Virus record (IMG/VR): IMGVR_UViG_3300046331_000248
Coordinates: 1-40,663 of that record
Direction: 5' to 3' (one strand)
Length of the DNA stretch: 40,663 bases
DNA from: a virus
Position 1 is the first letter of the stretch. The number at the start of each line of letters is the position of its first letter. The notes under the pieces are model-generated. The model saw only the letters and a list, made by a program, of their open reading frames with translations, made no database searches and was not told where the DNA came from. Shown one piece after another: positions 2,912 through 40,663 of this stretch. The position numbers and the translations under genes are program-made.

Positions 2912-5245
2912 TTAATTTGGTGTTTCTAAACTCAACTTACTAATATCTAAAGCAACTGATGCGGCTGTAGCATTATTTGTCATCCAACAAGTACGCCCTA
3001 GTGGAGATGTATTAAGTGGCAAATTCGTTGATAATATTCCAGACACGTCCAATGATGTAGCCAAGTTACGTACCCTGTAATAAACCGTTGTTTTATTTGC
3101 AGGAGTGTACAAAATTAATTCAATAAAATCTGTGTTATTAACAGGGTAATTTGTCCCTAAAGGAATTATCGTTGGTGCTGTACCTACTGCATTGTGTACC
3201 AAGTTCCAGTTGCCTGTATTTGCATTAATAGCTAAACCAATTACCCCCGCTGTAGTACTTGTTGTAGGGTCTATATTTGTTGGTGCTGTAGAGCCTAAAG
3301 TACTTAATCCACAGAACGCCCTATTACCTGCTTGCAGTGTTGTTAATGATATTCTGCCAACAAAATAAAACCCTCCAATATTAGCAGCATTACCACGTAC
3401 GCATTCGTTTACTGCAACTCTTGTGCCTGTTACGTTTCCTGCTGTAGCAGTGCTTGTTTGTGTGTATCTATTTATTGATGTTTTGTAATTGGTTGTTGCA
3501 ATTACAGGGTGTGAAACTGTTGCTAAAAAAGTACATGTTCTTCCAATAACTGTAGGAATAGTAGTTGCACCAGGGCTTACACCTGAGAAGTTATTAAAAG
3601 TCAAAGAACTTTGCATGTGATTTGTTTCGCCCCATTCGTCTATAGTACTAAATATTGCACGACCCCCAATATCTTTTACATATATCTTAGATAATCCTGC
3701 CGCTGGTAAAGATGGAGTGGTTGCTAAATCTGAAAACGTTGCATCATTTGTACCTGTGAACTGCTGTAAGCCATTTGCTATTATAGCGTTTCCACCACCT
3801 GCAAGTGTTGTGTATGTTCCGCTACCATTCAAAAAAGTAGTTGCACCTGAAGCTGTTGATAGTGTTACGCCATTGACTACCTGCCCTGCTGGTAAGCCAA
3901 CCGTTCCTGTAAATGTAGGAGAAGCAATATTTGCTTTTAAGTTTAGTGCAGTCTGTTGTGCTGTACTTACTGGCTTATTTGCATCGCTTGTATTATCTAC
4001 GTTTTCTAAACCTACTGCTGTTTTATCTAATGTTTGAAACGTTTTATCGCCTCTCCAATATTGTGCTGTTGTACCTGCTGTTATTGTATTTTCTTTTGTA
4101 GCTAATCCAGTATTAACTGCTGTTACACTTGGTGCTAATGTAGTACTCGCAACTAAACTATTTTGTACTTTGTTATCTGCATAAGTATTAGAAGTTGTAT
4201 TTGTTGCATTGTCGCCTGTATTTGTTCCGCTTAAATTCGCAACTGCTCCGTTTGCTAATTGTGCATTTGTGATAGTGCCTGTTAATTGCGTAGTTGGTAA
4301 TGCTAAACTTGGCAAACTCGTAATCGTACTATTTGTTGTTGCTGTAATATTTGCAGCAGTTCCACTTGTATTTGCTGCATTGTTTGGAATATCTCCACTT
4401 ACCAAAAGACCACTACTCAAAGCACCGCCTGCGGTTGTTTTTACAAATCCTGCTGTGGTTAAATTTGAAAGGATATTTATATTTTGAGTTGTGTTTACTG
4501 TAACTATTCCTGCTGTATTTGTTAAACCAGTTGAAATTGTCAAAGGCGTTTGTAATAAAATATCTGTTGCACCAAGTAACGATGCTCCATTAATTGTTTT
4601 GATATTAGTACCCGAAACTAATGTTGCTTGTTTACTTGCTAAATCGGTTGTTAAATTAGTTATATTCGCCTGTGGAATTGCAGTAAATGTTCCATTTTGG
4701 GTAGACAATGTTCCCAGTCCTGACACATCTGTATTTGCAATAGCAAGCATAGATTTTACTTCTGTTGTAGTAAGGTCTAATTCATCTGCTGTTGCATTTG
4801 TATTGTTTCCTTTTATTGTGTTTGCTGGTGCTTGAGCAAGTTTTGCATTTGATACTACGTTATTTGAAATAGTAAGAACTGTTGCTCCTGTTGCATCACC
4901 TGTATGAGTGGCGTTACTAACTAGTCCTGAGTATTGAGTATTTGTAGCGTTGTCACCAGTGTTTGTGCCTGTTAAATTTTCTACAGCTGCATTTGCTAAC
5001 ATAGCATTTGTAATTACTCCGTTTGCAATAGATGTTGTATTGCCGGTAGAGGTTACAACACCTATTAAATTTGCATTAGTTGTAACAGTAGCTGCATTAC
5101 CTGTAGTGCTTTGGTTAAGTATTGGAAAATCTGCTGGGATAGCTATACTAGGTATACCTGTTCCAGTTGTGTTTTTTAATATACCAGTTCCTAAAGCTGA
5201 TATAAGTGTTCCATTTAATTTTGTACTGTTGCTATTTGCTGACAT
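2912..5245 (-). CDS. Long repetitive tail fibre protein
   Basis: The 777-residue protein is rich in Thr, Asn, Ala, Gly and Ser. It has recurring motifs such as NLTGTNTGD, ITNAxLANxAV and TLSTAxGAT, typical of trimeric beta-helical tail-fibre shafts. A distinct C-terminal half (about 530-777) has few repeats and looks like a globular receptor-binding or jelly-roll domain, with several Trp and Cys residues. It lies next to the tail spike and upstream of lysis, a common place for receptor-binding proteins. Long plus-strand open frames opposite it are shadows produced by its biased codons. Specificity cannot be read from sequence. Confidence 0.75.
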   Translation of the reverse strand: MSANSNSTKLNGTLISALGTGILKNTTGTGIPSIAIPADFPILNQSTTGNAATVTTNANLIGVVTSTGNTTSIANGVITNAMLANAAVENLTGTNTGDNATNTQYSGLVSNATHTGDATGATVLTISNNVVSNAKLAQAPANTIKGNNTNATADELDLTTTEVKSMLAIANTDVSGLGTLSTQNGTFTAIPQANITNLTTDLASKQATLVSGTNIKTINGASLLGATDILLQTPLTISTGLTNTAGIVTVNTTQNINILSNLTTAGFVKTTAGGALSSGLLVSGDIPNNAANTSGTAANITATTNSTITSLPSLALPTTQLTGTITNAQLANGAVANLSGTNTGDNATNTTSNTYADNKVQNSLVASTTLAPSVTAVNTGLATKENTITAGTTAQYWRGDKTFQTLDKTAVGLENVDNTSDANKPVSTAQQTALNLKANIASPTFTGTVGLPAGQVVNGVTLSTASGATTFLNGSGTYTTLAGGGNAIIANGLQQFTGTNDATFSDLATTPSLPAAGLSKIYVKDIGGRAIFSTIDEWGETNHMQSSLTFNNFSGVSPGATTIPTVIGRTCTFLATVSHPVIATTNYKTSINRYTQTSTATAGNVTGTRVAVNECVRGNAANIGGFYFVGRISLTTLQAGNRAFCGLSTLGSTAPTNIDPTTSTTAGVIGLAINANTGNWNLVHNAVGTAPTIIPLGTNYPVNNTDFIELILYTPANKTTVYYRVRNLATSLDVSGILSTNLPLNTSPLGRTCWMTNNATAASVALDISKLSLETPN

Positions 5246-22182: not shown

Positions 22183-22211
22183 ATTATAACACATTACTTG
22201 ACAAGTGTCAA
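22183..22211 (-). promoter_or_regulatory. Consensus promoter before portal
   Basis: Minus strand TTGACA (22206-22211), a 17-base spacer, then TATAAT (22183-22188): both hexamers match the sigma-70 consensus, and a TG precedes the -10. It should drive portal through coat and adaptor. Confidence 0.88.
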
Positions 22212-24501: not shown

Positions 24502-24744
24502 TTATTTACTCTTCTTTAAACTATTTTTAATAACTTCATTTGCATTCTTTAATATACTTAAAACCTGCAAGCCAAGAACAGAAGTTTTAGGAATTGTTGA
24601 TTCAAGCACTTTGTACTGTTCTGTTTCTTTGTCTAGTATTTTTACAATTAAACAAAGCTTCAATTTACCTCCAACTATCATTTCTTCTATTGTTATAGAA
24701 TAAGGCTTAAGCTCCATATTATTTACTGTCATTTCTTTAGTCAT
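24502..24744 (-). CDS. First gene of the late operon, unknown function (80 aa)
   Basis: The protein has a beta-rich N-terminal half (SITIEEMIVGGKLKLCLIV) and a helical C-terminus. No domain is recognised. The ATG lies only eight bases beyond a perfect -10 box, so transcription probably starts at or next to it. Internal Met residues at 5 and 10 are alternative starts. As promoter-proximal gene of the packaging block it may be regulatory or structural. Confidence 0.6.
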   Translation of the reverse strand: MTKEMTVNNMELKPYSITIEEMIVGGKLKLCLIVKILDKETEQYKVLESTIPKTSVLGLQVLSILKNANEVIKNSLKKSK

Positions 24745-24752
24745 GTGTACAC

Positions 24753-24781
24753 ATTATACCATATATATAACATAGTGTCAA
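24753..24781 (-). promoter_or_regulatory. Main late-operon promoter (perfect consensus)
   Basis: Minus strand TTGACA (24776-24781), 17 bases, TATAAT (24753-24758). It points away from the promoter at 24824-24852, so the two form the divergent control point of the genome. Confidence 0.88.
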
Positions 24782-24823: not shown

Positions 24824-24852
24824 TTGACATAGCATAGTATTTATGTTATAAT
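24824..24852 (+). promoter_or_regulatory. Main rightward promoter (perfect consensus, extended -10)
   Basis: TTGACA (24824-24829), 17 bases, TATAAT (24847-24852), with TG at 24844-24845. Expected start of transcription is near 24859. The first substantial plus-strand gene is over 1 kb away, so its first product is probably RNA. Confidence 0.9.
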
Positions 24853-25096
24853 AATAAAAGTTGAATATGAATTTGTCCTGGGGGTTATCTGAGGGACGTT
24901 AAACCAAGTCAGATAAGCGTTGGGTGTCCTAACTCTAAACGGACAGATGACAGGGAGAAATGTTTTCTTCTTTCAGACAAACGTATCACTACTTCACATA
25001 ATCTATGGGGGGTAGGGGGGTCGTAACAAGATTCTGAAAGAAATATTTAATTACAAGTTTGTTTAACAAGTATAGTTATAAATAGAGTTAGTTGAT

Positions 25097-25151
25097 TAAG
25101 TTCTGTCTACTGTAGTTTTTATTAATTACTTTAGAGAGTAGACGGAACTTA
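25097..25151 (+). repeat. Hairpin A (15-bp inverted repeat)
   Basis: The arms at 25097-25111 and 25137-25151 match at all positions except one that can form a G-U pair. The loop is 25 bases. Confidence 0.8.
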
Positions 25152-25232
25152 GATAATTAGCTTAGAGATCGTGTTTGACCGTCCTCTTATGTTCTGTCTT
25201 TCCCACTTACATGATCTCTAAATTGATTATCT
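25151..25232 (+). repeat. Hairpin B (23-bp imperfect inverted repeat)
   Basis: The arms at 25151-25173 and 25210-25232 pair with four non-Watson-Crick positions and a 36-base loop. It directly abuts hairpin A. Confidence 0.75.
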
Positions 25233-25243
25233 AATTCATTTCT

Positions 25244-25267
25244 AGCTTCCACTTTGGAGGCTTTTTT
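25244..25267 (+). terminator. Rho-independent terminator of the candidate ncRNA
   Basis: AGCTTCC (25244-25250) pairs with GGAGGCT (25256-25262), one pair being G-U, followed by six T. Confidence 0.75.
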
Positions 25268-25377
25268 GTTACCTTAAGTGTTTCTAAACAATATTTAAGG
25301 CCGATATTCTAATTCATACTTATTTTTTAATTGCAAGCTCTATTTTAACTATATACAACAAGCTTGTTTAGCATGTT

Positions 25378-25530
25378 ATGAGAAACAAAGAATATGGGAG
25401 TAAACATAGTGTGGCACACATTAGTTTCAAAATAGGTAAGTGTTATGAGTGCCCGTTGCACGCATCATGGCTCACGAAAATATCCCCGCCTCGTCTCATT
25501 ATTTTACAACATAGATATAAGCGTGTGTAA
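25378..25530 (+). CDS. Possible 50-aa protein in the control region
   Basis: An ATG frame of 50 codons ends in TAA and covers the GC-richer patch. It is basic, with CYEC near residues 22-25. There is no ribosome-binding site or recognisable motif, and a frame of this length can occur by chance. Confidence 0.25.
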   Translation: MRNKEYGSKHSVAHISFKIGKCYECPLHASWLTKISPPRLIILQHRYKRV

Positions 25531-28020: not shown

Positions 28021-28260
28021 ATGAGTGCAAATAATGTTGTAATCGTACGTGAACTAGAAGACAAAACATATATTGTCACAGACAATTGTGCAGAGGAAAC
28101 TGTGGAACTAGATGAAGGTTACTTTATAGGTAAAGCAAAAACTTTAGATGAAGCCGTTGATCTTGCACACAAGTATGAGCAAGAAGAAATAGTGGAATAT
28201 GGAGTAAGTATTATTAGATTAAAAGATGCTAAGTGGTTACATGAAAACAATACTAATTAA
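28021..28260 (+). CDS. Small acidic protein (79 aa)
   Basis: The protein begins with a beta hairpin (VVIVRELEDKTYIVTD) and continues with a helix containing KAKTLDEAVDLAHKYEQEE, a fold common in small uncharacterised phage proteins. Its end overlaps the start of the next gene by 20 bases, indicating coupling. Function unknown. Confidence 0.6.
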   Translation: MSANNVVIVRELEDKTYIVTDNCAEETVELDEGYFIGKAKTLDEAVDLAHKYEQEEIVEYGVSIIRLKDAKWLHENNTN

Positions 28261-28792
28261 AGACGACGCTATATTAAAAACATCTAAAATTTTAGACTTA
28301 TTAAAAGCCAAATTTAATGTCTGGTCATACTACGATAACAATACTTTAGATAAAAATTTTCCTATACCAAAAAAATCTGCTGAACGATACTTTTTAGAGT
28401 CTCAAGAACCAGACAGTGATACTTTGGGTATGCCAGTAACTGAAGCAAACAATAAATATCCTGATAAGCAAGGTATAACCTTAAGAGAAAGATTATTATT
28501 AGAATTAGCATATTTTGATAAAACAGGTAAACACTTAGATATTAATGGAGTTACTTTTTGTAGCGGTTCTCGTGGTGTTGCTGGCAGTGTGCCGAGCGTG
28601 AGCTGGAGTGGCAGTGAGGTTCGAGTGGGCAGTTGCTATCTCGACAATTCGGATTCGTACTACGGTGTCCGTTCAGTAGTTACCCTTAACCCTTCTTCCT
28701 TTAATCCTTTAAAGTTAAACGAAACCACCGCTATCACACTTTTAAAAGACAAAGGATATAAAATTACAAGATTAGAAGAAAAGGAATATTAA
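28241..28792 (+). CDS. C-type-lectin-like variable protein (DGR-target-like)
   Basis: The longest frame starts at 28226; I choose the ATG at 28241 (183 aa), which is followed by MKTILIKDD. Residues about 106-148 read FCSGSRGVAGSVPSVSW, SGSEVRVGSCYLDNSDSYY and GVRSVV. This resembles the C-terminal lectin fold of diversity-generating-retroelement target proteins, in which scattered residues are replaced by Ser, Gly, Tyr, Asp, Asn and Val. The DNA of this patch (about 28556-28690) is clearly GC-richer than its neighbours. A C-terminal tail (AITLLKDKGYKIT) is shared with the next gene. No reverse transcriptase or template repeat was found. If real, a host-encoded retroelement might act in trans, or the gene was acquired already diversified. 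Confidence 0.55.
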   Translation: MKTILIKDDAILKTSKILDLLKAKFNVWSYYDNNTLDKNFPIPKKSAERYFLESQEPDSDTLGMPVTEANNKYPDKQGITLRERLLLELAYFDKTGKHLDINGVTFCSGSRGVAGSVPSVSWSGSEVRVGSCYLDNSDSYYGVRSVVTLNPSSFNPLKLNETTAITLLKDKGYKITRLEEKEY

Positions 28793-40440: not shown

Positions 40441-40614
40441 ATGGAACAAGAACAAACAACAATCATTGACACAGTAGCAGAAGTAACAGCAGTAGAACCA
40501 TCTGTAGATGTTACAGAAGAAGTTCAAGCTCAAGAAGTAGTAGAAGCTGTTGAAGAAGTTGAATCAGAGAATGTTTCTGATTCAGATGGTGAAGCGTCTA
40601 AAGTAGTAGCGTAA
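40441..40614 (+). CDS. Small acidic protein (57 aa), complete copy
   Basis: The protein is rich in Glu, Val, Ser and Thr with no aromatic residues (VEAVEEVESENVSDSDGE), so it is probably disordered. Its ATG is four bases after the preceding stop. DNA-mimic or partner-binding roles are possible, but nothing specific was recognised. The same 3' end appears at bases 1-78. Confidence 0.6.
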   Translation: MEQEQTTIIDTVAEVTAVEPSVDVTEEVQAQEVVEAVEEVESENVSDSDGEASKVVA

Positions 40615-40662
40615 AACTTTAAAATTATCAGACGACAGAAAAGGATCGGGGACACCCCGATC
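40537..40662. repeat. Right copy of the terminal direct repeat
   Basis: Identical to 1-126. The final base of the window (C at 40663) departs from the left copy and instead extends the palindrome of the 108-126 hairpin (it complements G at 107). Confidence 0.95.
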
Positions 40663-40663
40663 C

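Follow-up and report, generated by a model that had tools for sequence, protein, structure and literature searches.

The DNA stretch analysed here over its full length of 40,663 nucleotides (the window) very probably carries a standalone noncoding RNA gene (24860–25270, plus strand), with its start placed from the −10 element and its end from the terminator. The product appears to represent a new family of phage structured noncoding RNA, most likely acting in trans and facing the host; taken as a whole, gene and mechanism together, this favoured explanation is rated just below an even chance. The gene lies behind a promoter that matches the extended sigma-70 consensus at 12 of 12 positions (TTGACA-17-TATAAT, with TG before the −10; 24824–24852, plus strand) and closes with an intrinsic terminator (25244–25268, plus strand) composed of a stem at 25244–25262 followed by TTTTTT. 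Both elements had been claimed in a preliminary description made from the letters alone, and both were borne out. In the nearest relative, L004, the letters of the terminator stem differ and every pair is kept. An abundant and early transcript, as was also proposed, is a plausible reading of the promoter.

The window is an IMG/VR virus record whose first ~126 bases recur at its end (1–126 and 40538–40663), only the last base differing. It can therefore be taken as the whole genome, circularly mapped and about 40.5 kb long, of a phage with an uncultured host, although the record is classed as linear; the record of another relative, L048 (38,428 bp), shows such an end repeat too. Minus-strand genes left of 24.75 kb encode a TerS-like protein, TerL with Terminase_6N/6C domains and then structural proteins, whereas the plus-strand genes right of 26.0 kb encode a replication initiator/DnaD-like protein and a DnaB helicase. 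The TerS-like gene adjoins TerL and matches Terminase_2 at E 7e-4, which is below the Pfam cut-off. The RNA gene occupies the gap between the two blocks, beside the packaging genes and outside any tRNA island, and the GC-skew minimum at 25–27 kb coincides with the point at which the blocks diverge. The terminase/late operon is served by a divergent promoter of its own (TTGACA-17-TATAAT, 12 of 12 positions; 24753–24781, minus strand), and the ATG of its first gene lies 8 bases behind the −10. A comparison with 50,697 GenBank phage records returned no DNA similarity to the window, and a search for the host through TerL in GTDB genomes yielded just two partial matches of 30%, in Chloroflexi MAGs, which are not usable. 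The sole hints as to the host are the consensus sigma-70 promoters and the weak Shine-Dalgarno sequences found before most genes of the window.

Between promoter and terminator, a distance of about 400 bases, there is no convincing open reading frame (ORF), in agreement with the initial claim of about 410 bases devoid of a convincing gene: the longest ORF has 31 aa and a TTG start, and in L004 it is not conserved, being shortened to 22 aa through a frame change. A hidden peptide encoded by small ORFs of about 30 codons was considered and rejected, since these are not conserved, and three single-base indels that separate the conserved block from its counterpart in L004 likewise argue against protein coding. 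L004 was identified among TerL relatives collected from IMG/VR and is the nearest of them (TerL 92%). Its RNA body is 92%–100% identical to that of the window (24861–25228), with 100% identity over the 65 bases of the pseudoknot region described below and 92%–99% over the remainder; the corresponding values are 64% for the adjacent 80-codon gene, 67% for the upstream intergenic region, 36%–57% for the linker and terminator and 37% downstream. The conserved block thus starts approximately at the expected transcription start and stops near 25228, and the comparison indicates strong constraint on the RNA body.

Fold prediction, which had been proposed as a check, places the sense strand at z −4.4 to −5.2 relative to shuffled sequences. 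The 409-base stretch folds at −119.8 kcal/mol (z −4.42), a value equalled by none of 100 shuffles, and the sense strand reaches z −5.2 vs −2.4 for the antisense strand. The structured noncoding RNA postulated initially is supported further by the confinement of conservation to the RNA body in L004, by the presence of structured RNAs in the same slot of relatives and by covariation in one type of the latter. Several candidate features were discarded. The idea that the RNA targets genes of the phage itself by antisense pairing was rejected because the longest complementary match in the phage genome, 14 bases, is the same as in shuffles. An 11-base identity, GTCGTAACAAG, to the 3′ end of 16S rRNA, noticed by eye, is broken in L004 and is attributed to chance, and a closing helix of the 5′ and 3′ ends, also seen by eye (AUGAAUU near 24868 and AAUUCAU near 25234), is not kept in L004.

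The body of the RNA contains several hairpins. The consensus fold of the window and L004 includes the hairpin UUCUUUCAGA/UCUGAAAGAA, which encloses the run GGGGGGUAGGGGGG (24968–25042, plus strand). Further downstream, long hairpin 1 (25087–25161, plus strand) has 13 inner pairs (25098–25110/25138–25150) and an outer part at 25087–25093/25155–25161, and long hairpin 2 (25149–25234, plus strand) has 13 inner pairs (25162–25174/25209–25221) and nine outer pairs (25149–25157/25226–25234). The preliminary description placed two long hairpins end to end. Both exist, but they share a strand: the outer parts compete for 25149–25161, so that the full-length hairpins are mutually exclusive and are real as alternatives. 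In L004, the stems carry one substitution, located in hairpin 1, which turns a G-C into a G-U and keeps the pair, and the remaining hairpin substitutions lie within the hairpin 2 loop. With two sequences available for this RNA type, the covariation check on the two hairpins found no pair changed on both sides, and 6 of the 13 L004 substitutions lie at paired sites of the minimum-energy fold of the window, an avoidance that is not significant (P 0.13).

A further element, missed in the preliminary description, is an H-type pseudoknot at the 5′ end (24875–24916, plus strand), with S1 at 24875–24878/24894–24897, L1 (UGGGGG) at 24879–24884, S2 at 24885–24892/24909–24916 and L3 at 24898–24908, all on the plus strand. 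Its topology is shared with the RNAs of several relatives, named type B below, and with the separate RNA of L005; the window has, at the transcript start, the clade pattern of S1, L1 starting UGG, S2, a single G, S1′, L3 and S2′. In type B, the 5′ end reads S1, L1 UGGGCGAA, S2, a single G, S1′, L3 ending in UUAAA and S2′, and covariation is seen in S1 as well as in S2 (helices 1 and 2 of the covariation test), as judged from an alignment in which L008 is shifted there by one column and L010 was read by eye. A descriptor drawn up after seeing the sequences on which it was run (S1 of at least 4 pairs, L1 starting UGG, S2 of at least 5 perfect pairs, J of 0–1) finds the pseudoknot in the window with an S1 of 5 and an S2 of 8, matched by none of 1000 dinucleotide shuffles. 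It is likewise found in the type B RNAs of L008, L014 and L048 (0 of 1000 shuffles in each case) and in L005 (3 of 1000), whereas L010 escapes because its L1 starts UAG. Without the L1 constraint, 5 of 200 shuffles reach the window pseudoknot, and much of its weight is therefore carried by the shared L1 and spacing. The descriptor has no match in the short type C RNAs; these were rejected as pseudoknot RNAs, though by eye their CCUAACUUGGAUGCCA block resembles S1′/L3 of type B.

Among relatives with TerL identity of at least 66% and contigs reaching far enough, most have a divergent consensus promoter pair about 1–2 kb from TerL, as does the window upstream of TerS/TerL. The RNAs behind the outward promoter differ: type A is found in the window and L004, type B in L008/L009, L010, L014 and L048, the short and weakly folding type C in L006, L007, L011, L016, L067 and L071 (L013 is cut off), and a separate RNA in L005, whereas in L066 and L070 no promoter of the RNA-gene kind was seen and the RNA seems to be absent. 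A type B model built from three sequences matches L010, which had been left out of it, at 5e-9, and elsewhere finds nothing convincing. The 55 named pairs of type B are paired in 93.9% of cases, and 25 of them changed on both sides among the three sequences, as compared with a mean of 9.3 in shuffled controls (0 of 500 as good) and 1–7 in slid controls; the structure was named from the same sequences, a circumstance that works in favour of the percentage paired but does not easily account for the double changes. This covariation is strong evidence for RNA structure in type B, pseudoknot included. Run on the window, the type B model gives no match (the best sense-strand score, unfiltered, is 5.1 bits), so that the kinship of types A and B rests on topology and slot and not on a demonstrated homology of sequence. 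Searches of IMG/VR with the exact G-run pattern and with degenerate type A and B core patterns recovered known members plus chance or coding matches only.

The slots of relatives show features of their own. Directly behind the type B RNA, L014 carries an ORF for a DUF559 nuclease (3272–3619, minus strand), with a good Shine-Dalgarno sequence and its own terminator-like hairpin at the end, and L010 an ORF judged by eye to be RNase H-like (3207–3632, minus strand). Behind the type C RNA of L006, L007, L011, L016, L067 and L071 lies a long pyrimidine tract, mostly after a CTAGGGG-like motif, for instance CTAGGGGTCTTTTTCTTTC in L007.

To our knowledge, a function has been established for only a small number of phage noncoding RNAs. 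Consistent with the initial statement that no known RNA family was recognizable, a covariance-model search with Rfam 15 gave no match in the window at gathering thresholds, group I introns and other catalogued RNAs included, and nothing above noise when E was relaxed to 5; no catalogued family, ROOL and GOLLD among them, matched the 14 relatives at gathering either. Nearest in kind to the window RNA are ROOL and GOLLD, which are also phage-encoded, standalone, structured and pseudoknotted, besides being large and of unknown function (PMC12286853).

What role the RNA might play is suggested by its distribution. Mapped onto the TerL tree, types B and C require 4 and 7 label changes, respectively; shuffled labels do no worse. 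Because these types are scattered on this tree and two relatives seemingly have no RNA, the RNA appears to be an accessory cassette that can be exchanged, not a component of the packaging motor; such a component would be expected to follow TerL. The uncoupling from TerL, the unrelated ORFs in the slot and the constitutive promoter suggest an accessory RNA that acts in trans and faces the host, a role we infer from position and turnover. Judging from the promoter, the host sigma-70 RNA polymerase would transcribe the RNA on DNA entry and stop at the terminator. The RNA would then act in trans: its constant 5′ pseudoknot would dock to a conserved partner, either a protein or an RNP, and its body, which is exchangeable, would engage some variable host factor, for instance by serving as a decoy or an inhibitor during host takeover or counter-defence. 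The ToxI RNAs of type III toxin-antitoxin systems and their phage mimics have a small H-type pseudoknot that a phage could employ as a decoy, a likeness for which the sequence comparison was made with Rfam; unlike ToxI, the window RNA is present in a single copy, with no tandem repeat and no toxin gene. If the RNA indeed acts against the host, this would mean that phages keep a fixed cassette for effectors made solely of RNA. One slot offers several natural RNA versions that have a core in common, show compensatory changes and are clearly bounded, so that the RNA can be tested by swap or deletion. The broader proposition, that the clade possesses an RNA-effector slot in which a constant 5′ pseudoknot handle, exchangeable bodies, a constitutive host promoter and TerL-independent swapping combine to yield RNA-only factors of host takeover or counter-defence, is speculative and, in our view, doubtful.

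A host-facing RNA has to be weighed against cis action, namely, a leader or antitermination element that controls the rightward early genes. The put RNAs of HK022 are structured and, like the window RNA, located directly behind a strong phage promoter, but they are cis-acting and only ~70 nt long. The window RNA and the rightward genes share a strand, with the RNA lying ahead of them, and the RNAs of L014 and L010 are each immediately followed by a small ORF; however, the window RNA ends at its own terminator, with about 700 bases before the first ORF, the ORFs of L014 and L010 are mutually unrelated, and most relatives have none. Cis control is accordingly unlikely.

A noncoding element conserved in the relatives checked lies at 25401–25500 of the window, where it reads CCCCGCCTCGTC; in the relatives, the order is TGTAATACA, GGAAAT, GTGGTATTT and CCCCCCnnCGTC. 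This C-rich element, found ~130 to 400 bases downstream of the RNA in all RNA types, is a candidate cos, pac or origin. Its position, together with the GC-skew minimum and the G-runs present in the RNA, is compatible with a role in replication, as a primer or regulator in the manner of ColE1 RNA II, for an origin in the adjacent AT-rich region, yet the window RNA ends short of the element, the L070 record retains the element even though the RNA seems to be absent, and the G-runs are not conserved in form, all of which renders such a role quite improbable.

Marginally less probable still is a packaging RNA that would work like the pRNA of phi29, being located beside the terminase genes and perhaps close to a genome end, and assembling on the motor. 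The window RNA adjoins TerS/TerL and is transcribed toward the element that could be cos, and type B keeps its structure while the sequence diverges; phi29 pRNA, as described in part in PMC12670572, similarly combines a strong early promoter and adjacent packaging genes with a structure that stays as the sequence varies. Against this, the RNA types do not track the TerL phylogeny, L066 and L070 seem to do without the RNA, and no Rfam family matches. Moreover, phi29 uses the gp16 ATPase and a phi29-like motor has no separate small terminase, whereas here a TerS-like gene stands beside a two-domain TerL. The least probable reading is a multimer (cage) built of RNA alone, in the manner of ROOL or GOLLD, which the window RNA resembles in the general properties listed above (PMC12286853) but not in size (~400 nt vs ~660 nt and >800 nt), in sequence or, as ROOL and GOLLD often do, in lying near tRNA islands.

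Two features of the window outside the RNA gene can be added. The protein encoded at 28226–28792, with no Pfam family at E 0.01, has the C-terminus GSRGVAGSVPSVSWSG...SYYGVRSVVTLN. Perfect consensus promoters at 24744–24781 and 22184–22211 lie so near, or overlap, annotated ATG codons that late mRNAs would have little or no leader.
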